DNA from: Gracilibacteraceae bacterium
Lineage (GTDB): Bacteria; Bacillota; Desulfitobacteriia; Desulfitobacteriales; Syntrophobotulaceae
Direction: 5' to 3'
Length of the DNA: 64,000 bases
Assembly: GCA_031266805.1 (NCBI GenBank)
Contig: JAISAH010000102.1
Span: 32,130 to 96,129 of the forward strand
Shown: one piece after another, positions 51,616 through 63,373 of the stretch
How the letters are laid out: each line of letters begins with the position of its first letter
Position numbering within the stretch: the first letter of the stretch is position 1
Program-made: the position numbers and the translations under genes
The notes under the pieces: generated by a model
Databases searched by the model: none
Seen by the model: the letters and a program-made list of their open reading frames with translations, nothing else
Told to the model about the DNA's origin: nothing

Positions 51616-52284
51616 ATGAAAAAAACTTGTGAGAACGCTTTTTGCTCTTTTCTGCCGGAGGACGAGCGCCAGCTGATGTGCAGTCAGGCCAAAACCGTCT
51701 GTTACTCCGCCAAACAAACCTGCCATTTGAAAATAGGCGGCGAAGGTCAGCTCCTGATCATATCCTCCGGCTGTCTTTTTATTGTGCGCACACGCTTAGA
51801 CGGTCGGCAGCTGGGCACGGAGGTGTTAAGCAAAGGCGAAGTCATCGGGCTGACCAATTTGCTCCGCAATACGCGGGATCTGACTTTTTACACGAATACG
51901 GACATCAAAGGCTGCCTGATCCCCCACGATTTTTTCTATGAATTCTGTCTGAACAGACCGGAGATAGCGCGTATCATCATCTTGCACATAAGTTTGCGCC
52001 ACGCGCGGCTGATCAATAAAATGGAGCATCTCACCTTGGATAACAGCAGAGAAAAAATCCTTTACCTGATCCAAAAAATCAATTATGAAAGTTCTATTTC
52101 CGATAGCCGTATCTTCGCTTTCACGCATGAAGAACTGGCCCTGTTGGCCGGCGCCAACAGAGTGACCGTCAGCCGGGCTGTCAAACAGCTGAAACAGCAA
52201 GGCATCATCACTTCCGTCGCCAAAGGGAAATTCCGTTTGACCGAGAGTTATTACAACACGGACTATTTCGCCCGCCAGCGCTGA
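51616..52284 (+). CDS. Crp/Fnr-family transcriptional regulator
   Basis: A 222-residue regulator with an N-terminal cyclic-nucleotide-binding-like beta roll (LKIGGEGQLLIISSGCLFIVRTRLDG) and a C-terminal winged helix (THEELALLAGANRVTVSRAVKQLKQQGII). Several N-terminal cysteines (Cys5, 10, 22, 29, 36) could hold an iron-sulfur cluster or act in redox sensing, but the spacing does not match FNR. It converges with the MFS gene with only 2 bp between stops. The ligand and targets are unknown. Confidence 0.87.
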   Translation: MKKTCENAFCSFLPEDERQLMCSQAKTVCYSAKQTCHLKIGGEGQLLIISSGCLFIVRTRLDGRQLGTEVLSKGEVIGLTNLLRNTRDLTFYTNTDIKGCLIPHDFFYEFCLNRPEIARIIILHISLRHARLINKMEHLTLDNSREKILYLIQKINYESSISDSRIFAFTHEELALLAGANRVTVSRAVKQLKQQGIITSVAKGKFRLTESYYNTDYFARQR

Positions 52285-52286
52285 AA

Positions 52287-53456
52287 TCAGCTTTCTTTTA
52301 CCAGACCGAAAGCCAGACCCGCTAAGAGAGCAGGTACGGCGAAGACGAGGAAAATCACCGGCTGCGATAATTCCCATTCCAGTAAAAATCCCCAAAAAGC
52401 CGTGCCGAACACCGCGCCCAGCCGTCCGACGCCGTTGCACCATCCCAGACCGGTGGAACGGATAGCCGGAGGATAATACTGCGATACATAAGCGTTCGCT
52501 ATATTTTGCGTGCCATAAGTGCAGGCGCCCGTTACAAAAATTATCGCCCCCAGCGCCGGGATACTGTGCCCCCAGCCCAGCGCCGCCAGACTGAGCGCCC
52601 CGGCCAGATAGAGAATGATGAGGAGTATTCGCGGCTTTATCCATTTGTCGGCCAATGTCGCTAAAATAAATGTTCCGATGATACAGCCGACATTCAATAT
52701 AATAGGAAAGACCAGACTGCCGTTTAAACTGGCGCCGCCCCGCATCATCAGTTCCGGCAGCCAGGTTCCCAGCCCGTATATCATCAGCAGCGTCATGAAG
52801 TAGGCCAGCCAGAACATGATGTTGTTACGCGGATGACCTGTCCGGAAAATGTTAGCGCGTTCTTCTCCGCCCTGATTAGCAGGGCCGGACATATCCGCCG
52901 GCCCTTGCTTTGGTATATATTTCCACATGAACGGGAGCAAAATGACGGTCACTCCGCCAAAGAACAGCACCGCGCGCCAGCCGAACCTTTGGGCGGTGAA
53001 AATACCGACCGCCGGCCCCAGCAGCCCGCCGAACTGGATGCCGCACAGGACGACGGCCACGAGAGTATTCCGCAGGCGGGGCGGGGCATAATCAGCGGCC
53101 AGAGCGGTCACATTCGGCAGCGCGCCGCCGATGCCGATGCCGCATAAAAAGCGGTATACGGTGAAAGCGAGCGCTGAATGGGCAAAACCGCCCAAAAAGG
53201 TGAATAAACTGTACAGGGCCACACTGAGCAGCAAAGTTTTTTGCCGGCCGACTTTGTCCGCCATGACGCCCAATAAAATCGAGCCGAGCATCATGCCCAC
53301 CAAACTGCTGCTGCCGATGAACCCGGCCTGTGAGGGACTCAGGCTCCATTCCGCCTTCAGCAGAGGCAGCACCGCCCCGTAGAGAAAGAGATTATACCCT
53401 TCGCCGGTGGTGATAAAAAAGCAAAGGATAAAAACCGCGGCTTTATTTACCTTCAT
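52287..53456 (-). CDS. MFS transporter (AAHS-like)
   Basis: A 389-residue permease with twelve hydrophobic segments. The MFS loop motif is DKVGRQKTLLLS, and the GYNLFLYGAVLPLL start resembles the aromatic-acid:H+ symporter group. It is the last gene of the minus-strand M24/TRAP operon, three bases after the first M24 stop. Import or export of a carboxylate related to the hydrolase substrates is likely but not shown. Confidence 0.87.
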   Translation of the reverse strand: MKVNKAAVFILCFFITTGEGYNLFLYGAVLPLLKAEWSLSPSQAGFIGSSSLVGMMLGSILLGVMADKVGRQKTLLLSVALYSLFTFLGGFAHSALAFTVYRFLCGIGIGGALPNVTALAADYAPPRLRNTLVAVVLCGIQFGGLLGPAVGIFTAQRFGWRAVLFFGGVTVILLPFMWKYIPKQGPADMSGPANQGGEERANIFRTGHPRNNIMFWLAYFMTLLMIYGLGTWLPELMMRGGASLNGSLVFPIILNVGCIIGTFILATLADKWIKPRILLIILYLAGALSLAALGWGHSIPALGAIIFVTGACTYGTQNIANAYVSQYYPPAIRSTGLGWCNGVGRLGAVFGTAFWGFLLEWELSQPVIFLVFAVPALLAGLAFGLVKES

Positions 53457-53459
53457 GAT

Positions 53460-54653
53460 TCAGGGGATCACAAACAATTCGCGCGGCGCCCGGTGCAAAC
53501 GGATCGGGGCAGCGTCTGTCGTCAGGAAGTTGTCGCAGCAGAAGGTGAAGGCGGTGGCGGTGGAAAGGCGCGGGTGGACGGCAATGTTCATGTTGGGCTT
53601 GATCTTCATCGGCTCCTCCGGCCGGATGGAGGGGCGCTCCACCAGATCGTAGCCCTGACCGTGGCCGATGAGGCTGGTTTCTTCCTCAAAGCCATGCTCC
53701 CTCAGATAGCGGTTGATGGACTCAAAGAGCGTGCGACAATCCGCGCCGGGCCGTATCTGGTCAGCCAGAAAATCCTGAGCTTTGACCGTCTCCTGCCAGA
53801 GATCCGCCATTTCTTTGGGCGGGTCGGCCAAGCAGAAGCAACGGGCGATCTCGGTGTAGAAGCCGCCGGGGCCGTTCACCTCAATGAGTACAGAAATATA
53901 GTCATTCTCGCCTATGACCCGGTTCTGCAGGTAGGGGCTGGAATGCTTGGCCAACTGGCCGAAGGGGGCGCTGCCCAGCATCAGGAGCTGCTCCTCAGAG
54001 CCCAAATCCGTCAGCAGGTGTTGGATGGCGTTGCGCAGCTCAATGTCCTTCATGCGAGGGCGCAGGATAGCGGGGATGGCGGCCACCACCGCGTCTTGGA
54101 TGGCTGCGGCTTTGAGGATGAAGACCAGTTCGTCCTCGCTCTTGACGGCCTTGATGTCGTCCACCTCGTTCGTGAAATCCACGATACAGGCCCCGGAGAG
54201 GTTGGCCCTCAGACAGGCGTCAAAGGTGGAGGGGATCATAGCCGGCCCCACATAGCCCAATGTCTTCACGCCAAGGCCTTTCAGCGTCTTGACAGCCGCC
54301 TCCGCGTCGAAGGTGTTCGTGTAGTTGAAGGTCAAGAAATAGGGGAGGCCGATGACCTCCTTGACGCCATAGGTGGCCCATAGCGGCGGGAAAGCCGGGC
54401 GGGGCGGGCCGCCGGAGCTGATCATCGTGATCTCCTCGTTGGCGGGAAAGATCACCGTCACCGGGTAGGAGTTCTCGGCGATGATATCGGTGAAATAGCG
54501 GACGTAGCCGCCCAGATGTTTGTTGTTGTTTTGCATGATCAGGCAGTCGACGCCCTTGGCTCTCATCTCGGCCCGAACCGCGTCATGACGGCGCCTGAGC
54601 TCCCGCTCCGGGATCGGGGCTCGCAGCCTCTCAATTCTTTCTTTTTCACTCAT
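53460..54653 (-). CDS. M24-fold hydrolase, creatinase-like, with altered metal ligands (copy A)
   Basis: A 397-residue pita-bread-fold protein (N-terminal creatinase domain ~25-160, C-terminal M24 domain). The five usual di-metal ligands (D, D, H, E, E) are mostly replaced. SVLIEVNGPGGFYTEIARCF has E for the first Asp, LIGHGQGYD keeps the His, and NIAVHPRL has H where the Glu of EPG normally lies. This points to a metal-free, creatinase- or ectoine-hydrolase-like activity on a small amide or amidine compound rather than an X-Pro aminopeptidase. It lies between TRAP dctM and an MFS permease. Codon use (AAG/GAG rich) differs from the flanking core genes. Confidence 0.8.
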   Translation of the reverse strand: MSEKERIERLRAPIPERELRRRHDAVRAEMRAKGVDCLIMQNNNKHLGGYVRYFTDIIAENSYPVTVIFPANEEITMISSGGPPRPAFPPLWATYGVKEVIGLPYFLTFNYTNTFDAEAAVKTLKGLGVKTLGYVGPAMIPSTFDACLRANLSGACIVDFTNEVDDIKAVKSEDELVFILKAAAIQDAVVAAIPAILRPRMKDIELRNAIQHLLTDLGSEEQLLMLGSAPFGQLAKHSSPYLQNRVIGENDYISVLIEVNGPGGFYTEIARCFCLADPPKEMADLWQETVKAQDFLADQIRPGADCRTLFESINRYLREHGFEEETSLIGHGQGYDLVERPSIRPEEPMKIKPNMNIAVHPRLSTATAFTFCCDNFLTTDAAPIRLHRAPRELFVIP

Positions 54654-54694
54654 AGTTATTCAGACTCCTTGTTGCATAGTCGTTGCGTCATTAT

Positions 54695-55996
54695 TTACAT
54701 TAGGTTGGGCAGGAACATGATGATCTGGGGGAAAGCTATGGTCAGGGCCGTGCAGACAATCAGGGCCAAGAGGAAGGGGACGGCCCCGCGGAAAACCGTC
54801 TGCAACGGAACGTCCGGCGCCACCCCGTGGGCGATATAGCAGCCCATGCCCACCGGGGGCGTCACTTGCCCCATGGTGACGGCGATAGTCATCATGACCC
54901 CGAACCAGATCAGGTCGTAGCCCACGGCCTCGACGATGGGGCAGAAGATGGGCACGGTCAGGGCGACCATGATGATGCCGTCGATGAAGCAGCCGGCGAT
55001 CAAAAGCAGGATCATGATGATAATGATGACCACCACCGGGAAGGTGTTGAGACCGATGAGCCAGGCGGAGATGGCGGCCGGGATCTTGGCGATGGCGATG
55101 AAGCGCCCGAACACCATGGCGCAGGCCAGGATGAAAAGGATCATGCCGATGGTCTCGGCGGTGTCCGTCAGCGAAGCGACGAATTTTTTCCAGTTCATCT
55201 TGCGCCGGACGGTGGTCACCACCAGCAAGGCGAAGCAGCCGATGGCCCCGCCCTCGGTGGGGGTGAACCAGCCTATCGACAAACCGCCGATGCAGAAGAC
55301 GAAGATGATCAAAGTGTCCACCAAGCCGCCGCCGGCTGCTTCCATCTTCTGCTTCATGGTGAAGCGTTCGCCGGCGGGGGCCAAGGACGGGTTCCGCTTT
55401 ACCATGATGGCGATGGTGATGATGTAAAGCGCCAGCAGCAGGATGCCGGCGCCGATGCCGGCGATAAAGAGCTTGCCGATGGAGCAGCCGGTCTCGATAC
55501 CGTAGATGATAGCGATGGTGGAGGGCGGGATCAGGAGGCCCAGACCGCCGCCGGCCGCCGTGCAGGCCGTCATCAGCTTGCGGTCGTATTTTTTCTCTCG
55601 CATCACCGGGAAAGCGATGGCGCTGATGGTGGCCGTGGTGGCGGGGGCGGAGCCGCAGACCGCGCCGAAGGCGGCGCAGGCCACCTCAGCCGCCATAGCC
55701 AAGCCGCCGGGCAGGTAGCCGATGCAGCGGTAGGCGAACTCGAAGAGCTGGGAGCCGACACCGGAGCGGAAGGCGATGTAGCCCATCCAGACGAACATGA
55801 CCACCGTGCTCATGTCATAGGAAGCGAAGCTGGCGAACATGTCCGTGGAGAGCAGGTTGAAGGCCGCGTCCGGGTTGGCCAGAAGGGCGAAGCCGATGAC
55901 TCCGAAGAAAGCCATGCATGTGCCAATAGGCATGCCCAGGAAAAGGAAGCAGAAGAACAGGACGGCGATAACCAAAGCGACGGTTTGAGTAGCCAT
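54695..55996 (-). CDS. dctM: TRAP transporter large permease subunit DctM (set 1)
   Basis: A 433-residue membrane protein of the TRAP transporter, with about twelve hydrophobic segments. It shows the conserved GSAPATTATISAIAFPVM and the LLIPPSTIAIIYG stretch. It drives Na+- or H+-coupled uptake of the ligand captured by DctP. The track start is trimmed to ATG 55996, which has GAAGGGGGC before it and lies 2 bp past the dctQ stop. Confidence 0.93.
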   Translation of the reverse strand: MATQTVALVIAVLFFCFLFLGMPIGTCMAFFGVIGFALLANPDAAFNLLSTDMFASFASYDMSTVVMFVWMGYIAFRSGVGSQLFEFAYRCIGYLPGGLAMAAEVACAAFGAVCGSAPATTATISAIAFPVMREKKYDRKLMTACTAAGGGLGLLIPPSTIAIIYGIETGCSIGKLFIAGIGAGILLLALYIITIAIMVKRNPSLAPAGERFTMKQKMEAAGGGLVDTLIIFVFCIGGLSIGWFTPTEGGAIGCFALLVVTTVRRKMNWKKFVASLTDTAETIGMILFILACAMVFGRFIAIAKIPAAISAWLIGLNTFPVVVIIIIMILLLIAGCFIDGIIMVALTVPIFCPIVEAVGYDLIWFGVMMTIAVTMGQVTPPVGMGCYIAHGVAPDVPLQTVFRGAVPFLLALIVCTALTIAFPQIIMFLPNLM

Positions 55997-55998
55997 GC

Positions 55999-56523
55999 TC
56001 ACGCCCCCTTCCAATCGTCTTCAGAAGGACCGGACTTCTTCTCGCCCCAATGCTGCAGGGAGTCAATGAAGTTATAAATCATGACGACCAAATAGTTCAA
56101 AAGCCCTATCGACAGGCAGACCACCGCCGGCCAATGGGGGATGCCCATGATCCAGGTTCGGCTGTGGTAGGAGTAAGTGTTGCCGATATAGAGGAAGAAA
56201 CGCCAGGTGATCACCGCCAGAGTGACGGCGGCCATGGTCATCATGATGATGAAAACGACCTTGCCGATCTTGGGCGGCAGGTACTCCCGGACAAAGTCCA
56301 CCCGGATATGCTTGCGCAGCTGCTCGGTGACGCTGACGGCAAAGGCCACCGCCAAGGCGTTGAAGATGCTGACGATGTCGGTAAGCCCCGCCACCGGCGT
56401 AGAGAAAAAGACGCGTCCCAGCACGCTGACGGCCACCACCGCCATCGTACAAAACAGCACCAGATCCGCCAGAAAGGCCATGATTTTGGCCGAGCACCGC
56501 ACATATTTTCCGTATAATTCCAT
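55999..56523 (-). CDS. dctQ: TRAP transporter small permease subunit DctQ (set 1)
   Basis: A 174-residue protein with four membrane helices (LADLVLFCTMAVVAVSVLGRVFF; IFNALAVAFAVSVTEQLRKHIRVDF), typical of DctQ. GGAGG precedes the ATG. It pairs with the DctM encoded directly after it. Confidence 0.9.
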   Translation of the reverse strand: MELYGKYVRCSAKIMAFLADLVLFCTMAVVAVSVLGRVFFSTPVAGLTDIVSIFNALAVAFAVSVTEQLRKHIRVDFVREYLPPKIGKVVFIIMMTMAAVTLAVITWRFFLYIGNTYSYHSRTWIMGIPHWPAVVCLSIGLLNYLVVMIYNFIDSLQHWGEKKSGPSEDDWKGA

Positions 56524-56556
56524 TTCGCCTCCGTTTTATCCGTTCAGTGAGGAGAC

Positions 56557-56579
56557 TCGGGGAACCGGCGGCTCCCCGA
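56557..56579. other. Intercistronic hairpin between dctP and dctQ (set 1)
   Basis: TCGGGGA ... TCCCCGA forms a 7-bp stem, extended inward by CC/GG pairs, in the 84-bp gap after dctP. Hairpins in this place are common in operons where the binding protein is needed in excess over the permease, through mRNA stabilisation or partial termination. Confidence 0.65.
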
Positions 56580-56607
56580 ACCTCCCTTGGAATCTGGACT
56601 GAAGGTC

Positions 56608-57693
56608 TCAGTACTTGTCGGAAAGCTCCATCAGGATGTCAAAGGCGCCCTGCCCGTCAAGGCCGGCGGCGTTTTTCTCGTCGATCCAAGCTTGGTGCTG
56701 AGGCGTGATGGCCTCATACCAGCGAGCCAGTTCGGCGTCGGAAAGCTCGATAATTTCCACGCCTAAGCTATCGGCAAATTCCAGACCGCTGTTGTAGTAG
56801 TCATCGGCCAGCTGCCCGGTTTCCACCACCGCCTCCAAACTGACGCGCTCGATCTCGGCCTGCACCGCCGGAGGGAGTGATTCCCAGGTCCGCTTGTTCA
56901 TGAAGATGGGGTGGGGGATATAGGAGATGCCGGGGATCAAAGTCACATACTTGGAAACCTCGGCCAGATTGTTGGGCTTGCCCAAAGTGCCGGGGTTCGC
57001 CATGTTCACGTCCACCGTGCCCTTGAGCAGAGCGTCGTAGGTCTCGGGCATCGTGAGGCCTACCGGGGTGGAACCCAGAAGCTGCACCGTGCTGACGCAA
57101 AAGCCGGTGACCCGCACCTGGGTGCCCGTCATGTCCTCAAGCTTCTCGATGCGTTTGTTGCCCATGAGGACCGAGGGCGGCATGCTGTAGGCCCAGAGCA
57201 TCTTCACGTCGTTGTACTCGGCGAAGTCCTGATGTATCCACTCGTTGGCCGCCAAGGAGGCGTTCACACAGTCGTCGAACTGGATGCCGCCCATGAAGAT
57301 GCCGCTGAAGAGCGGGAACTCCGCCGGGTTGTAGGCGATGTCCTCTTCCGCTACCTCCGCCACGCCGTCACGGACGCCGGGGTAGATAGTGCCGGACTTC
57401 ATCAAAGTACCGCTGGGGTAGATGGTGACCGTGACCTTGCCCTGGGTGGCCTCCTCGACCTTGTCGGCCCAATGCTGGATGCCTTCCGTCAGGACGTGGT
57501 TGTCCGCCAAAGTGATGGGCATCTTCAGCTCTATCGCCTGCATGTTGTCCAAAGCCGTCTGCAGGTCTTCCGCCTCAGGTTCACCGCCCGGGGTTTGCGC
57601 CGGTGGGGTCTGCGCGGCCGGAGCGCCGCCGCAGGCTGAAAAAGTCAAAAGCAAACATACCGCCATGAAAATGAGACTCATTTTTTTAAGCAT
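56608..57693 (-). CDS. dctP: TRAP transporter solute-binding protein DctP (set 1), lipoprotein
   Basis: A 361-residue extracytoplasmic receptor. The start MLKKMSLIFMAVCLLLTFSACGG is a lipoprotein signal with a lipobox Cys. The family core VTGFCVSTVQLLGSTPVGLTMPETYDALLKGTVD contains the region where the substrate carboxylate-binding Arg usually sits (TGTQVRVTG). ATG 57693 has GAGGAGG 6 nt upstream; the track start 57717 is rejected. It is 42 bp downstream of the second M24 gene, likely co-transcribed. AAG and GAG codons dominate. Confidence 0.92.
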   Translation of the reverse strand: MLKKMSLIFMAVCLLLTFSACGGAPAAQTPPAQTPGGEPEAEDLQTALDNMQAIELKMPITLADNHVLTEGIQHWADKVEEATQGKVTVTIYPSGTLMKSGTIYPGVRDGVAEVAEEDIAYNPAEFPLFSGIFMGGIQFDDCVNASLAANEWIHQDFAEYNDVKMLWAYSMPPSVLMGNKRIEKLEDMTGTQVRVTGFCVSTVQLLGSTPVGLTMPETYDALLKGTVDVNMANPGTLGKPNNLAEVSKYVTLIPGISYIPHPIFMNKRTWESLPPAVQAEIERVSLEAVVETGQLADDYYNSGLEFADSLGVEIIELSDAELARWYEAITPQHQAWIDEKNAAGLDGQGAFDILMELSDKY

Positions 57694-57735
57694 TTTCTTC
57701 CTCCTCGAATTTTCCAATCAAAATACCGGGATCGC

Positions 57736-59007
57736 TTAAAGAATCATCAGCTCTATTTCCGGACCGTAAAGTTTTTCGCATCCGTCCGCGGTTACGGCGT
57801 ACATGTTGCCCGGGCCGAAAACCCCCGGTTTTTTCAGCTGAAAACCGGATTTCGCCGCGCTGGGATGCAGGACCAACACCATATTTTCTTCCAGTATCAG
57901 GTCTTCCTCGGCAGAAAACGTCCCTTCATCGATGGTCAGACCCATGAGATGCCCGCGGGGCCCCGCCTCAAAATCCGCGGCGCTGAGCCAGCCGGCCGCC
58001 CTGACTTCTTCATCCATAATATGACAAATATCCTTGGCGTTCGCGCCCGGTTTTATCGCCGCGGCGCCTTTGCTCTGAGCGGCCGCCGCCGCTTTGTGCA
58101 GTTCGCGCATGACCGGCTGCGGTTCGCCCACGCTGGCAAGCGCGACCCGCTGCGTCCAATAGCCGCCGATGGCCGCTGTGATCTCCATGAGGATCATGCC
58201 GCCTTTTTCTACGCGCACCGGAGAGTGGGCGCTGGTCCAGTACGGACAGGAGACGTCCAGAGCGTTGATCTGCATCAGATTGAAAACCTTGTCCGCCTGA
58301 CGCTCGTACATCATCCTGCTCCATTCGGCCGTGATCTGGTAGTCATACATGCCGGGCCGGACAAAATCGCGCATGGCCAGCCAGATTTCATCGCATACCC
58401 GCGCGGACTGGCGGGCGAGATTCAATTCGCCCGGAGATTTCACGCGGCGCAGCTTGGTAAAATCAGCGGCTATATCCGGCAGCTCCAGATCCGGAAATTC
58501 CTGCCGCAGCGCTTCAAATTTCGCCGTGTCCAGCAGCGTGCGGTCGATGCCCAGCCGTCCCTTCGTCAGGCCCTTGGCGCGCATGACGCTCGCTATGCTC
58601 TCAAAAGTCGGCTGGTGGATATGCGCGCGGTCAAACCAGATATCATCTTGGAATTCGTCAACACAACGGTATTGATAGGCTCTGGTCGGGTGAAAAGCAA
58701 ATATCTCCGGCTCCCCGTCCGCCGGAAACAACGCGTAACCGTAACGCTGGCCGATGCGGAAATACTGTCCCGTAACATAGCGAATATTGCATTCTTCCCA
58801 GGCGTTGCCGCTCAGAAGAATCGCGTCCAGTTCATGCTCTTTGATAAATTTTCTGATCCTGGCGTAACGCCACTCTTTGTCCGCCAAAGTCAATCCCGCC
58901 AAAATTCTTTCTCCCTCCCGCCTGTGATTTTTCCCAGCAGATTCCGCCTGCCCTCCTTCCTTTTGCGGATCGCGGCTGATACGCTGTTTAATTAATACCT
59001 CGTTCAT
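57736..59007 (-). CDS. M24-fold hydrolase, creatinase-like, with altered metal ligands (copy B)
   Basis: A 423-residue protein from MNEVLIKQRISRD. The N-terminal creatinase domain is followed by an M24 domain in which the metal ligands are again altered. MILMEITAAIGGYWTQRVAL has E and T/Q for the two Asp, GPRGHLMGL keeps a His, and MVLVLHPS has HP in place of EPG. It is distant from copy A (different lengths and motifs) but shares the same type of loss. The track start 59160 would include a terminator and two dyads, so ATG 59007 is chosen despite a weak ribosome site. It is probably the first gene of the operon M24B-dctPQM-M24A-MFS. Confidence 0.8.
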   Translation of the reverse strand: MNEVLIKQRISRDPQKEGGQAESAGKNHRREGERILAGLTLADKEWRYARIRKFIKEHELDAILLSGNAWEECNIRYVTGQYFRIGQRYGYALFPADGEPEIFAFHPTRAYQYRCVDEFQDDIWFDRAHIHQPTFESIASVMRAKGLTKGRLGIDRTLLDTAKFEALRQEFPDLELPDIAADFTKLRRVKSPGELNLARQSARVCDEIWLAMRDFVRPGMYDYQITAEWSRMMYERQADKVFNLMQINALDVSCPYWTSAHSPVRVEKGGMILMEITAAIGGYWTQRVALASVGEPQPVMRELHKAAAAAQSKGAAAIKPGANAKDICHIMDEEVRAAGWLSAADFEAGPRGHLMGLTIDEGTFSAEEDLILEENMVLVLHPSAAKSGFQLKKPGVFGPGNMYAVTADGCEKLYGPEIELMIL

Positions 59008-59050
59008 TTCCGCGTTGCCACAATTATAAAAACATTCGGAAGAAGTATCT

Positions 59051-59103
59051 GTAGTTAATGCTACGAATGAGCAAATATTCAGATAATATGTAGCGAAGGC
59101 TAC
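59051..59103. promoter_or_regulatory. Tandem operator-like dyads GTAG-N6-CTAC
   Basis: GTAGTTAATGCTAC (59051-59064) and GTAGCGAAGGCTAC (59090-59103) are two copies of a 14-bp GTAG-N6-CTAC dyad, 39 bp apart centre to centre, upstream of the copy B M24 gene. A TATTAT on the minus strand lies between them. They look like a paired repressor or activator site. Confidence 0.55.
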
Positions 59104-59123
59104 AAAACTATGTACAATGCGGG

Positions 59124-59166
59124 AAAAACAAAGGGTCGGACCGCCGCGCCGCCGATCCAACCCTTT
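59124..59166 (-). terminator. Rho-independent terminator of TRAP set 2
   Basis: On the minus strand a 14-bp stem (AAAGGGTTGGATCG with CGGTCCGACCCTTT, two G-U pairs) with a 9-nt loop is followed by GTTTTT. It lies about 40 bp past the set 2 dctM stop, separating that operon from the M24B operon. Confidence 0.8.
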
Positions 59167-59207
59167 ATTTTATTTTACTCCGGAAACCTCCGCCGCAAGG
59201 CGCGCGG

Positions 59208-60509
59208 TCAGCGACCGGCCATATGCGGCAGGAACAAAGACAGCTGCGGCACATAGGTCACGATGATCAGCGCCGGCAGCCAAACCACCAGGATCAGGAA
59301 AAAAGTTGGTTTCATCATGGCCGCCACCGGCGTGTTACTGAGCCGGGCGGCCAGATAGGTGAGCGGAGCGCAGGGCGGCGTGACGCAGCCGAGACTGATA
59401 TTGACGGCCACGATCGCGGCGAAATGGATCCGGTCCACCCCCACAGAGTCCACGATAGGGAGCAGCAAAGGCACGGCTAGCAGCATGGCGCTGACGTCGT
59501 CCATCAGCATACCGACGATGATCATAAAAATATTGACGAGACAGAGTACCACAAATCTGTTCTGGGAAACGGAGTTGATGACGTCGAGCATGGAGTCCGG
59601 CAGGTTTTCCATGATATAGATGCGACTCAGCATCATGACCATAAAGATCATCACCATGACGACGCCGATAGTGCTGGCGCTGCTCACCAGCATCGGCCCC
59701 AAACTTTTCAGGCTGAGGGAGCGGTAGACCAAAAAACCGACGAGCAAAGCGTAGATCAAAGAGACGGAGGCTGATTCCGTCGGCGTCATGATGCCGGAAT
59801 AAATACCGCCCAATATGATGAAAGGGAAAATCGCCGCAGGGATAAAAGATATGCCGGTCTTTTTCAGACGGGCGACATACACGTCCTTGGGCATTTTTTC
59901 CATCACGTCCATGCCGGTGTCGTGCCGCACCATGAAATAGTAGGCGATAGAAAACATCACCGTCATCATTATCCCCGGCAGGAAAATCGCCAGGAAACAG
60001 GCTATCACCGACTGCTGGGAAATCCAGGCGTAAACTATCATCAGCGAACTCGGTGGGATCAGACCGCCCAGCAGGCAGCAGCTGGCGATGAGGGCGGCGG
60101 ATTTGCCCTTGTTATACCCGGCGGCGTCCATGCGCGGCCACATGATAGAGCCGATAACAGTCATGGTCGCCGTCGCGCTGCCTGTCACCGAGCCGAAAAG
60201 CGCGCAGGACGCCACAGCCACAATGCCGAGCGAGCCTTTGACGCGGCCGATCAGCAGATTGACAAAATCAACCAGATGAGCGCCGATGCCGCTTTTTTCG
60301 ATCACGCCGCCCGCGATGACAAACAGGGGAATGGCTAAAAGGACATAGCTGCTCAGCCGGGAGTAGGAATAGGGCATGAGTACTGAAGGGTCGTAGTGCC
60401 CGGCCAGCACCAAATACATGACGACGGCGAAAAAAGAAGCCGGCACGGGGATCCCGATGACGAGCAGGAGGATCAGCAACAGAATGGAGACGACGACGAT
60501 GACGCTCAT
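59208..60509 (-). CDS. dctM: TRAP transporter large permease subunit DctM (set 2)
   Basis: A 433-residue permease with about twelve hydrophobic segments. It has GSVTGSATATMTVIGSIMWPRM, GGLIPPSSLMIVYAW and the GCVTPPCAPLTYLA stretch typical of DctM. It overlaps dctQ by 4 bp (ATGA). It is the last gene of its operon and ends at a strong terminator. Confidence 0.93.
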   Translation of the reverse strand: MSVIVVVSILLLILLLVIGIPVPASFFAVVMYLVLAGHYDPSVLMPYSYSRLSSYVLLAIPLFVIAGGVIEKSGIGAHLVDFVNLLIGRVKGSLGIVAVASCALFGSVTGSATATMTVIGSIMWPRMDAAGYNKGKSAALIASCCLLGGLIPPSSLMIVYAWISQQSVIACFLAIFLPGIMMTVMFSIAYYFMVRHDTGMDVMEKMPKDVYVARLKKTGISFIPAAIFPFIILGGIYSGIMTPTESASVSLIYALLVGFLVYRSLSLKSLGPMLVSSASTIGVVMVMIFMVMMLSRIYIMENLPDSMLDVINSVSQNRFVVLCLVNIFMIIVGMLMDDVSAMLLAVPLLLPIVDSVGVDRIHFAAIVAVNISLGCVTPPCAPLTYLAARLSNTPVAAMMKPTFFLILVVWLPALIIVTYVPQLSLFLPHMAGR

Positions 60510-61036
60510 GACTCGCCGCCTTCGGCTCGCGCCGGCTCCTCCGGCAAGCCGCGCGCGAGCGTCATGGCGTAACGGACGGTATGCCAGCCCGAGTACAAAG
60601 TCATGAGGGCCAGACCGGCCAGAATAATGCCGTATATCAGGGCAAAGGAAATATGGAGCGTCAGCGTCGCTTTGCCGATGGCCGCGGTGCGGACGACCAG
60701 TCGGACCGCCAGATAGACGCTGACGGACATCAGAGCCGTTTCCGCCGCGCCGCGCGCAACTTTGAGAAGCAGCAGGGCTTTCCGGTTTTTGATAAACATG
60801 CTGGAAAGATCCGCTGTTATCTGGTTTTCTTCATAGCTGCCGTAGCCGCTGCCGATGAAATACAGGAGAACGGCGAACACCATAATGATTTCTTCCATGC
60901 CCATGAAGCTGTATCTGAAAAAATAGCGCAGGAGCACAGTGACAAACACGAGCAGAATGACGGCTATACCGCTGATGACGAGAGTGAAGCGCTGCAGAAA
61001 AAGCAGGGCGTTCCACAGGGCGCGGAGCGGTTTCAT
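60506..61036 (-). CDS. dctQ: TRAP transporter small permease subunit DctQ (set 2)
   Basis: A 176-residue protein with four membrane helices (FTLVISGIAVILLVFVTVLLRYFF; GMEEIIMVFAVLLYFIGSGYGSYEENQITADL), as expected for DctQ. Its start shares one base with the dctP stop and its end overlaps dctM by 4 bp. Confidence 0.9.
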   Translation of the reverse strand: MKPLRALWNALLFLQRFTLVISGIAVILLVFVTVLLRYFFRYSFMGMEEIIMVFAVLLYFIGSGYGSYEENQITADLSSMFIKNRKALLLLKVARGAAETALMSVSVYLAVRLVVRTAAIGKATLTLHISFALIYGIILAGLALMTLYSGWHTVRYAMTLARGLPEEPARAEGGES

Positions 61037-62133
61037 CAGACGCTGCCTGACGCCGCAACCAAGCCGTTATACAAATCGTCGCCGATGTCGTCTTTGATCT
61101 GCGGCCAGACGATCTCGCGGCATTTGGTGGTAAAATCGTCCAGAACAGCCTGATCGGGAACGATCACTTCAATGCCGTAATCACGCATTTTTTGCAGATA
61201 TTCGGCCTCAATAGCCTCGCCGCGCTCAATGCTCTGTTCAAAAACCCAGTCGGCGTTCACGGTCAATGCGTTTTGCTGCTCCGGCGTCAGGCTGTTGAAA
61301 GTATTCAAGTTGAGACTGATGGTGGAAACCTCGAAGAAATTGTTTATCTGGATATAATATTTGATCACGTCGCGGAACTGATCATAGCAGGCCGGGGGAT
61401 GGCCGCCGACAAAAGCGTCGATAACTCCGGTCTGCATCGAGGTGAAAAGCTCCGACCAGTTGATGCTCTGGCAGTTATAGCCCATTTCCTGCATCAGCAC
61501 GGAGAACAGAGACGAATTAGGCACGCGCAGGAGGATATCATGCGCGGCGCCCCACTGATCCCAGGCGGCAGGCATTTTAGCGGAGGCCAGACCGCCGGCC
61601 CCGACCGCGTGTAAAGTCAGCAGTTTGACATTGATATCCGCGCACATCTGTTCATAGGCGTCATAGACGAAAGTGCCTTTGGAGTATATTTCACCGGCGT
61701 TTTCCCACGAATTAGCCACATAGGGGAATACGACCAGATTGAATTTTTCCCCGTAGGACACGGAGGGAGCGCCGAAGGTCATCATGTCGGGCGAGCCTTC
61801 CGCCACTTCGTCAAAAACGGTGGTATAGTCGCCGAGGACGCCGGAATAAAAGGGTTTGATGACGACTGTGCCGTTACTGTCGTTCTTGACCCTTTCGATA
61901 TACTCCGCCAGCAGCTGACCGGTCGGATGGTCCGCCGTGTAATCGCAGTGGATCCGCAGTTCCACCACTTCCGCGGCCGCCGGTTCCTGCGGTTCGGCGC
62001 CATCGGCCGGTTCCTGGGATTCCGTGCCGCCGGCCGGAGCCGCCGGCTGGGACGGTTGGCTGGAACAGGCTGACAGGAGAACGATCAATGACAGCAGGCA
62101 ACAGAGGAATAAGGAGACAGCTTTCTTCTTCAT
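61036..62133 (-). CDS. dctP: TRAP transporter solute-binding protein DctP (set 2), lipoprotein
   Basis: A 365-residue receptor with a lipoprotein signal (MKKKAVSLFLCCLLSLIVLLSACSS) and a Pro/Glu-rich spacer. A DctP fold follows (ELRIHCDYTADHPTGQLLAEYIERVK; ILLRVPNSSLFSVLMQEMGYN; FTSMQTGVIDAFVGG). It is the first gene of the second TRAP operon and is divergent from the LysR gene. It is only distantly similar to set 1 DctP, so different ligands are likely. Confidence 0.92.
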   Translation of the reverse strand: MKKKAVSLFLCCLLSLIVLLSACSSQPSQPAAPAGGTESQEPADGAEPQEPAAAEVVELRIHCDYTADHPTGQLLAEYIERVKNDSNGTVVIKPFYSGVLGDYTTVFDEVAEGSPDMMTFGAPSVSYGEKFNLVVFPYVANSWENAGEIYSKGTFVYDAYEQMCADINVKLLTLHAVGAGGLASAKMPAAWDQWGAAHDILLRVPNSSLFSVLMQEMGYNCQSINWSELFTSMQTGVIDAFVGGHPPACYDQFRDVIKYYIQINNFFEVSTISLNLNTFNSLTPEQQNALTVNADWVFEQSIERGEAIEAEYLQKMRDYGIEVIVPDQAVLDDFTTKCREIVWPQIKDDIGDDLYNGLVAASGSV

Positions 62134-62349: not shown

Positions 62350-62464
62350 TGAAAGCAGATGGAACATAGAACATCACATTGAACCAACTATCCGACCTCG
62401 TTACAGAATATTGCGTTGATGGAGGCATTGGCAATTGTTGAAGCGACTGGAGGTAAGGATAAGG

Positions 62465-63373
62465 ATGGATCTCAAGCAGCTTAGGTATCTGGTCGAAATA
62501 GCAAAGCACCGCTCTATGACTTTAGCCTCAAAAAGAATCTTCATCAGTCAGCCGACAATCAGCAATGCTCTCAAGAATTTGGAAGAGGAGTTGGGTGTCG
62601 AGCTTTTTATCCGGAACAAAAGTGGGATTTCTATGACCCCATTCGGCCAGGAGGTCGTGGTAAGAGCAAAGAGCATATTGGAAGAGGTAGGCGCGATACA
62701 AAGCAAGGCGCAGATCGCCAAAAAGCCGGCGAATGTGTTTGCCGGAACCCTCATGATCTACACTGTTTCTTCGATCAACCATACGATACTGCCGGATATT
62801 CTGGAGGCGTACAAACGCCAATATCCACACGTTTCGTTCAATGTCATCGAGACAGATTTGGAAGAAATTGTCATTCAAGTCCAAAGAAAGAAAAATAGCA
62901 TAGCCCTTGTGGCTATAGAAAACTACATCGTCGAACACTATCAGTTGGATTCAGTCGTTAACTATGTGCCCCTTGTACAGGAGCGCATGTTCGTCTATGC
63001 CGCTAAGAACTCGCCGATATTCAAGTACAAGTCCATCAGCATGAAAAAAATCCTCGCCTACCCGCTCGTGATCTACGATGTGAATACCTGGGCAGATGAG
63101 TCGTTGCGGCCATATGGCAAAGCAAATGTCTTATTGAAATCCAATGACATGGCTCTGGGATTCAAAATGGTAGCGGAAAGTCACGCGGTAGGCTTTGCCA
63201 GCAATATGGTCATCAACAAAGGGGCATTCTTCGACAGCAGCTTGGTTTCATATATTCCCATTGAAAACCAGATTCAGTACTACATCGGCTATATGTACAG
63301 CAAAGAAAAAGAGCTGGAAGCGCCTCTGCTCGAATTCATCAACATTTTCAAGTTCCATCTTAACAGCATATGA
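62465..63373 (+). CDS. LysR-family transcriptional regulator
   Basis: A 302-residue regulator. The N-terminal winged helix (MDLKQLRYLVEIAKHRSMTLASKRIFISQPTISNALKNLEEELG) is followed by a periplasmic-binding-protein-like ligand domain. The track start 62435 is replaced by ATG 62465, which has AAGGA 5 nt (and GGAGG 11 nt) upstream. It faces away from TRAP operon 2 and probably controls it, possibly with the M24 operon too. Confidence 0.92.
   Translation: MDLKQLRYLVEIAKHRSMTLASKRIFISQPTISNALKNLEEELGVELFIRNKSGISMTPFGQEVVVRAKSILEEVGAIQSKAQIAKKPANVFAGTLMIYTVSSINHTILPDILEAYKRQYPHVSFNVIETDLEEIVIQVQRKKNSIALVAIENYIVEHYQLDSVVNYVPLVQERMFVYAAKNSPIFKYKSISMKKILAYPLVIYDVNTWADESLRPYGKANVLLKSNDMALGFKMVAESHAVGFASNMVINKGAFFDSSLVSYIPIENQIQYYIGYMYSKEKELEAPLLEFINIFKFHLNSI

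Follow-up and report, generated by a model that had tools for sequence, protein, structure and literature searches.

Two TRAP transporters and two M24-fold proteins with rewritten ligand positions share an operon in a Gracilibacteraceae bacterium

Introduction

What do two M24-fold proteins, in which most of the metal ligands typical of this fold are replaced, do in an operon that also encodes two TRAP transporters? The question is raised by a locus in the draft genome of an anaerobic bacterium (3.4 Mb in 152 contigs, 95% complete), of which a 64-kb stretch, referred to here as the window, was analyzed. To our knowledge, no member of the two families to which these proteins, M24-A and M24-B, belong has a measured substrate, product or metal, and a literature search for the combination of M24, TRAP and 2-hydroxyacid dehydrogenase genes found nothing. 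The function of the locus was approached through its gene layout, the residues at the ligand positions, the neighborhoods of related genes and the relatives of its transport proteins.

Results and Discussion

Organization of the operon

The genes of the locus, with the evidence used to name them, are as follows:

51616..52284, + strand, Crp/FNR-type regulator, convergent with the operon (Pfam HTH_Crp_2, cNMP_binding)
52287..53456, - strand, MFS permease, AAHS-like (MFS_1, 173 bits; TIGR00895, 278 bits, under cut-off)
53460..54653, - strand, M24-A, M24-fold enzyme (Pfam M24, 90.7 bits; alignment, fold)
54695..56014, - strand, DctM2, large TRAP permease subunit (Pfam DctM, 306 bits; TIGR00786, 322 bits)
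55999..56523, - strand, DctQ2, small TRAP permease subunit (Pfam DctQ, 61 bits)
56608..57717, - strand, DctP2, solute-binding lipoprotein of TRAP module 2 (Pfam DctP, 124 bits; PDB matches; tree)
57736..about 59007, - strand, M24-B, M24-fold enzyme (Pfam M24, 82.6 bits; Creatinase_N, 47.8 bits; alignment, fold)
59208..60509, - strand, DctM1, large TRAP permease subunit (Pfam DctM, 277 bits; TIGR00786, 316 bits)
60506..61036, - strand, DctQ1, small TRAP permease subunit (Pfam DctQ, 37.3 bits)
61036..62133, - strand, DctP1, solute-binding lipoprotein of TRAP module 1 (Pfam DctP, 118 bits; lipobox LSAC)
62435..63373, + strand, LysR-family regulator, divergent from the operon (Pfam HTH_1, LysR_substrate)

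Read along the minus strand, the order is DctP1-DctQ1-DctM1, M24-B, DctP2-DctQ2-DctM2, M24-A and the MFS permease, with the LysR gene transcribed divergently and the Crp-type gene convergently. By Pfam assignment, both TRAP sets are complete (DctP, DctQ and DctM), so that the presence of two TRAP transporters next to two M24 hydrolase-like genes, as stated in a preliminary description of this DNA, was confirmed. The start of M24-B is ambiguous: a TTG at 59160 opens the frame, an ATG lies at 59007 and the orthologues begin near 58900. The residue numbers given below for M24-B refer to a 423-aa version.

The LysR regulator likely controls the operon. LysR genes repeatedly adjoin related M24/TRAP loci, and a homologue of the Crp/FNR-type regulator also flanks M24-A in a locus from another genus (L095). 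An Rfam search of the window returned zero matches, and the number of sites in a promoter scan of the window was not above that in shuffled sequences. Terminator-like sites in the window numbered 20, compared to 12.2 in shuffles (sd 3.1), and were not used as evidence.

Fold and ligand positions of M24-A and M24-B

Both proteins scored above the Pfam M24 cut-off of 23 bits, and their predicted structures adopt the pita-bread fold, with matches to prolidases, creatinase, EutD and DddP. The models had mean pLDDT values of 69.5 and 71.2, with low confidence at active-site loops (residues 325-343 in M24-A and 247-261 in M24-B), and they rest on six sequences, because the viral contigs searched for M24-A and M24-B relatives contained none usable for structure prediction. 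The models settle the fold, not the choice among functions.

The ligand positions were read from an alignment in which both proteins and their relatives were set against canonical prolidases, the EutD of S. meliloti (L120; 838.9 bits to TIGR02993) and a creatinase (L118; 858 bits to 7yto). In prolidase-type enzymes the five ligand columns, here called D1, D2, H, E1 and E2, read D-D-H-E-E. M24-A carries E258, E268, H331, H360 and C373 in these columns, with D374 adjoining the last of them, and M24-B carries E275, Q286, H353, H381 and G400. With columns that read E-E-H-H-C and E-Q-H-H-G, four of the five ligands are replaced in each protein; since the loop after D1 is one residue shorter in M24-A, the alignment of E258 with D1 passes through a gap. 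The classical ligand set is thus absent from both proteins, as the preliminary description had anticipated, and its reading of HPR/HPS at the position of EPG was borne out as well. Its E-x-x-G motif held for M24-A (E-V-N-G), but in M24-B the segment reads E-I-T-A.

The replacements are conserved among the M24-A-type and the M24-B-type sequences. Amongst 41 M24-A-type proteins, the D1 column was E, the H column H and the E1 column H in every sequence, the D2 column was E in 35, D in three and H in three, and the histidine of the peptidase VHE motif was replaced by V, I, M or T in all 41. The M24-B-type sequences read E, Q, H, H, G in seven of seven. Such invariance argues against chance or local decay as the source of the replacements. 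Additionally, D2 shifts in M24-A types only among E, H and D, which fits a role as ligand, and since all four core columns are metal-competent, a rewired, perhaps mononuclear, site in M24-A is likelier than none. Judged from these columns, the M24-A pattern is that expected of a rewired metal site, unlike the patterns of creatinase or EutD. Histidine and glutamate can work without a metal. To describe the di-metal site as lost, as was done earlier, is nevertheless too simple, as the replacing residues are invariant and are themselves possible metal ligands.

Comparison with creatinase and ectoine hydrolase

An osmolyte-directed function had been proposed by analogy with creatine and ectoine catabolism, in which M24-A and M24-B would be metal-free amidine or amide hydrolases resembling creatinase or ectoine hydrolase and would be fed by TRAP osmolyte uptake. 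The analogy has several attractions. The Halomonas ectoine locus reportedly links an M24-fold hydrolase with TRAP uptake, and the ectoine hydrolase DoeA/EutD (Halomonas elongata; rhizobia) has in common with the proteins of the window the M24 fold, the change from D to E at D1 and a transporter-linked catabolic operon. Creatinase (1chm/1kp0/7yto) likewise has the M24 fold but lacks some of the peptidase ligands, and by eye the H-x-P-V segment of M24-B resembles the 'GAHNPV' around the catalytic histidine of creatinase.

The ligands that are lost, however, differ. Creatinase (N-A-H-E-E) loses both aspartates and keeps both glutamates, which are exactly the two that the window proteins lose (to H, and to C or G); EutD (E-P-Y-M-T) loses the histidine and both glutamates, whereas the window proteins keep the histidine and carry another at E1. 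In a tree of 66 M24 proteins, M24-A fell in a clade of 48 members and M24-B in a clade of six, each with support of 100 and both apart from creatinase, EutD and the prolidases. The DoeA models scored far under their cut-offs (613 for TIGR02993 and 575 for NF038259), with 30.0 and 24.8 bits for M24-A and 40.7 and 32.8 bits for M24-B; the S. meliloti EutD served as the positive control for TIGR02993. The 95%-complete genome gave no match to the deacetylase EutE/DoeB, in a search whose controls matched only in Haloferax, under cut-off, and the single creatininase homologue of the genome lies on a different contig. A search for sarcosine reductase (GrdB), intended as a test for creatine catabolism, gave no match with any control and was uninformative. 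On the other evidence, the osmolyte analogy does not hold up well, and we consider it unlikely that the two proteins are hydrolases of this kind.

Linkage of altered M24 genes to transporters

The source genome encodes 12 M24 genes. Nine of these are altered-type genes, spread over five loci (C96, C123, C7, C100 and C125), which is an unusual expansion for one genome of 3.4 Mb. TRAP genes were present at all five altered loci, with DctM within a few kb, compared to none of the three canonical M24 loci that were read (L092, L093, L094). The genome has 13 DctM genes and about 4.5% of its sequence lies no more than 6 kb from one of them, so the chance of five linked loci, taken as independent, is approximately 2e-7.

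Neighborhoods were then compared across 58 M24 loci, not all of them independent. DctP was found in 35 and CRP/FNR regulators in 19, followed by D-2-hydroxyacid dehydrogenase in 13, MFS genes in 10 and ketopantoate-reductase-like genes in nine. At single M24 loci, the place of TRAP is taken by carriers of the MatC, TctA or Na-sulphate-symporter type. The arrangement of a TRAP transporter between two M24 genes was seen again in L080, L097 and L101, and the set of M24, dehydrogenase and TRAP genes recurs in a distant Bacillota genome (G353, locus L133) and on alphaproteobacterial plasmids (L013, and L015 from Pacificitalea). No dehydrogenase adjoins the window operon itself.

The closest named match, in which M24-B has 93% identity, is a Gracilibacteraceae (Clostridia) metagenome bin (L009), and a scan of contigs with M24-B as the query found this one close relative and three ordinary peptidases. 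In another genus (G010, L095), the order M24-B, DctP2-DctQ2-DctM2, M24-A is kept, with identities of 67% for M24-B and 69% for M24-A. The M24-A type is patchy, being found at E <= 1e-80 in five of 399 Bacillota genomes, and relatives with 33-35% identity are carried on plasmids of Aminobacter, Rhizobium and Pacificitalea. With TRAP linkage far above chance and synteny kept, the earlier view of a coordinated locus for import and enzymatic processing was upheld.

Two other types of neighborhood were observed. The first (L087, L088, L089) combines an M24 gene, with D in the D2 column, with isopropylmalate/tartrate-dehydrogenase-like, dihydroorotase/hydantoinase-like, malate/lactate dehydrogenase and carbon-nitrogen hydrolase genes; two of the three loci also contain TRAP genes. 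This cluster resembles a full pathway for one substrate and would be a promising place from which to identify it. The second is a module shared by the plasmid-borne M24-A relatives of Aminobacter (pUSP2, L013) and Pacificitalea (pDY25-C, L121), which comprises a beta-keto acid cleavage enzyme, a 3-hydroxyacyl-CoA dehydrogenase, an SDR, a cupin, an MBL-fold hydrolase and an ABC importer.

These neighborhoods also bear on whether the proteins are divergent Xaa-Pro peptidases whose substrates are small peptides, or conjugates of peptides, brought in from outside. Prolidases and Xaa-Pro aminopeptidases (PepQ, PepP; 3q6d, 5giu) are the closest sequence and structure matches of both proteins, and prolidases their best generic models. 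The replacement of four of five metal ligands, together with that of the VHE histidine in M24-A types, nevertheless sets them apart, and the neighbors include TRAP and other carboxylate transporters, with no oligopeptide transporter seen among the neighbors scanned. A peptidase function is thus very unlikely, in agreement with the earlier reading of both enzymes as something other than ordinary metallopeptidases.

In a sub-clade of seven M24 proteins, the replacement residues are gone as well (T at D2, N at E1 and Y, F or H in the H column), from which it follows that inactive members of the family probably exist. In all six testable loci (L082, L101, L106, L108, L110, L113), the degenerate protein directly adjoins a residue-intact member of another sub-clade, and a further locus of this group, L080, lies at a contig end. 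The degenerate and intact sub-clades each have support of 100, and the tandem pairs suggest that a degenerate subunit and an active one form a heterodimer. The degenerate sub-clade lends some credit to the view that M24-A and M24-B are themselves dead, either as sensors or binders of an imported acid or as mere neighbors of plain C4-dicarboxylate transporters. Against this, the polar cavity residues of the window proteins appear, from the alignment, to be fully conserved, and the linkage to transporters is too frequent for a chance association. We therefore regard this explanation as quite improbable.

Clues to the imported substrate

The best solved relatives of DctP2 were 4n6d, 4nap and 4pgn/4pgp (E down to 3e-36), followed by 7nqg and 7nr2. 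We take the bound ligand of 4pgn/4pgp and 4nap to be indole pyruvate, indole acetate or tryptophan, and 7nqg and 7nr2 are presumably aromatic-acid TarP proteins. In the tree, DctP2 groups with 4n6d and 4nap/4pgn with support of 95, so that presumed binding proteins of aromatic-acid (TarPQM-type) and indole-acid TRAP systems form its nearest group, at an identity of approximately 30%, which does not fix the ligand of a TRAP protein. We know of no report of an M24 gene with tarPQM. DctP1 belongs to a different clade, with 4pfb and 4xfe as the closest solved chains. The TRAP binding protein TarP has nanomolar Kd values for coumarate, ferulate, caffeate, cinnamate and 4-hydroxyphenylpyruvate (PMC3610893), and indole acids are listed amongst TRAP ligands in a review (PMC5812351).

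For the MFS permease, the aromatic-acid/H+ symporter model TIGR00895 was the best of 54 models, with 278 bits against a cut-off of 418.55. Genes like it take the place of TRAP beside M24 genes in relatives. The similarity to AAHS symporters and this exchange with TRAP suggest uptake, and the permease is probably an importer of carboxylates or aromatic acids, which speaks against the earlier suggestion that it could export a product. The grouping of DctP2 and the similarity of the MFS permease make it likelier that the substrate is an aromatic or bulky carboxylate than that it is an amidine osmolyte, and on sequence grounds a moderate case can be made that module 2 imports an aromatic or similarly bulky acid. 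N-lactoyl amino acids, pantothenate and hydroxycinnamoyl tartrate or malate esters were also considered as substrates and set aside; each fits some of the genes that neighbor relatives, and none was singled out.

Proposed function

The explanation that we tentatively prefer, at somewhat less than an even chance, is a catabolic operon whose imported organic acids are processed by M24-A and M24-B. The two TRAP systems and the AAHS-like permease would bring the acids into the cell, where the cytoplasmic M24-A and M24-B, with their creatinase/prolidase fold, would act on them. The conserved E, E/D/H, H and H of M24-A, and the conserved E, Q, H and H of M24-B, may hold a single metal or serve as general acid/base within the same cavity. 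The two enzymes may cleave a carboxylate conjugate at an amide- or ester-type bond, hydrolysis being assumed from the fold, and one product may be a 2-hydroxy- or 2-oxoacid that would be taken by dehydrogenases such as those encoded next door in M24-A relatives. The LysR and Crp-type proteins would regulate the operon.

The main rival to hydrolysis is that M24-A and M24-B use the pita-bread fold for a lyase or decarboxylase reaction. The DMSP lyase DddP establishes that elimination chemistry is possible on the M24 fold, DddP structures were among the fold matches of both proteins, and the enzymes encoded nearby in relatives are 2-oxoacid and 2-hydroxyacid dehydrogenases, not products of peptide or amino-acid genes. 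The metal site of DddP, however, is built on the classical positions, which M24-A and M24-B have rewritten, and the DddP model NF043017 was absent from the matches of both proteins at E <= 0.001. A lyase or decarboxylase function is thus a serious competitor to the proposed hydrolysis, but in itself rather unlikely.

More speculatively, and well short of an even chance, these proteins may represent a new class of M24-fold enzyme in which a mononuclear two-histidine site (E, E/D/H, H, H) has taken the place of the di-metal peptidase site. The class would have radiated (nine genes in this genome) into transporter-linked enzymes with which anaerobes degrade carboxylates, partly aromatic ones, that they import, and some members would work as pairs of active and degenerate subunits.

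Altogether, the ligand-altered M24 phenomenon is real and more general than could be seen from the window at first, and metal loss with osmolyte hydrolysis is the wrong frame for it. Under routine annotation as Xaa-Pro peptidases, there is an M24 clade with a fixed rewriting of its ligands and with acid transporters and 2-hydroxyacid dehydrogenases for company. One known substrate would correct many M24 annotations, would open a way into acid catabolism that is still uncharacterised in anaerobes and in some rhizobia and roseobacters, and would show how a di-metal fold can be converted to other chemistry.
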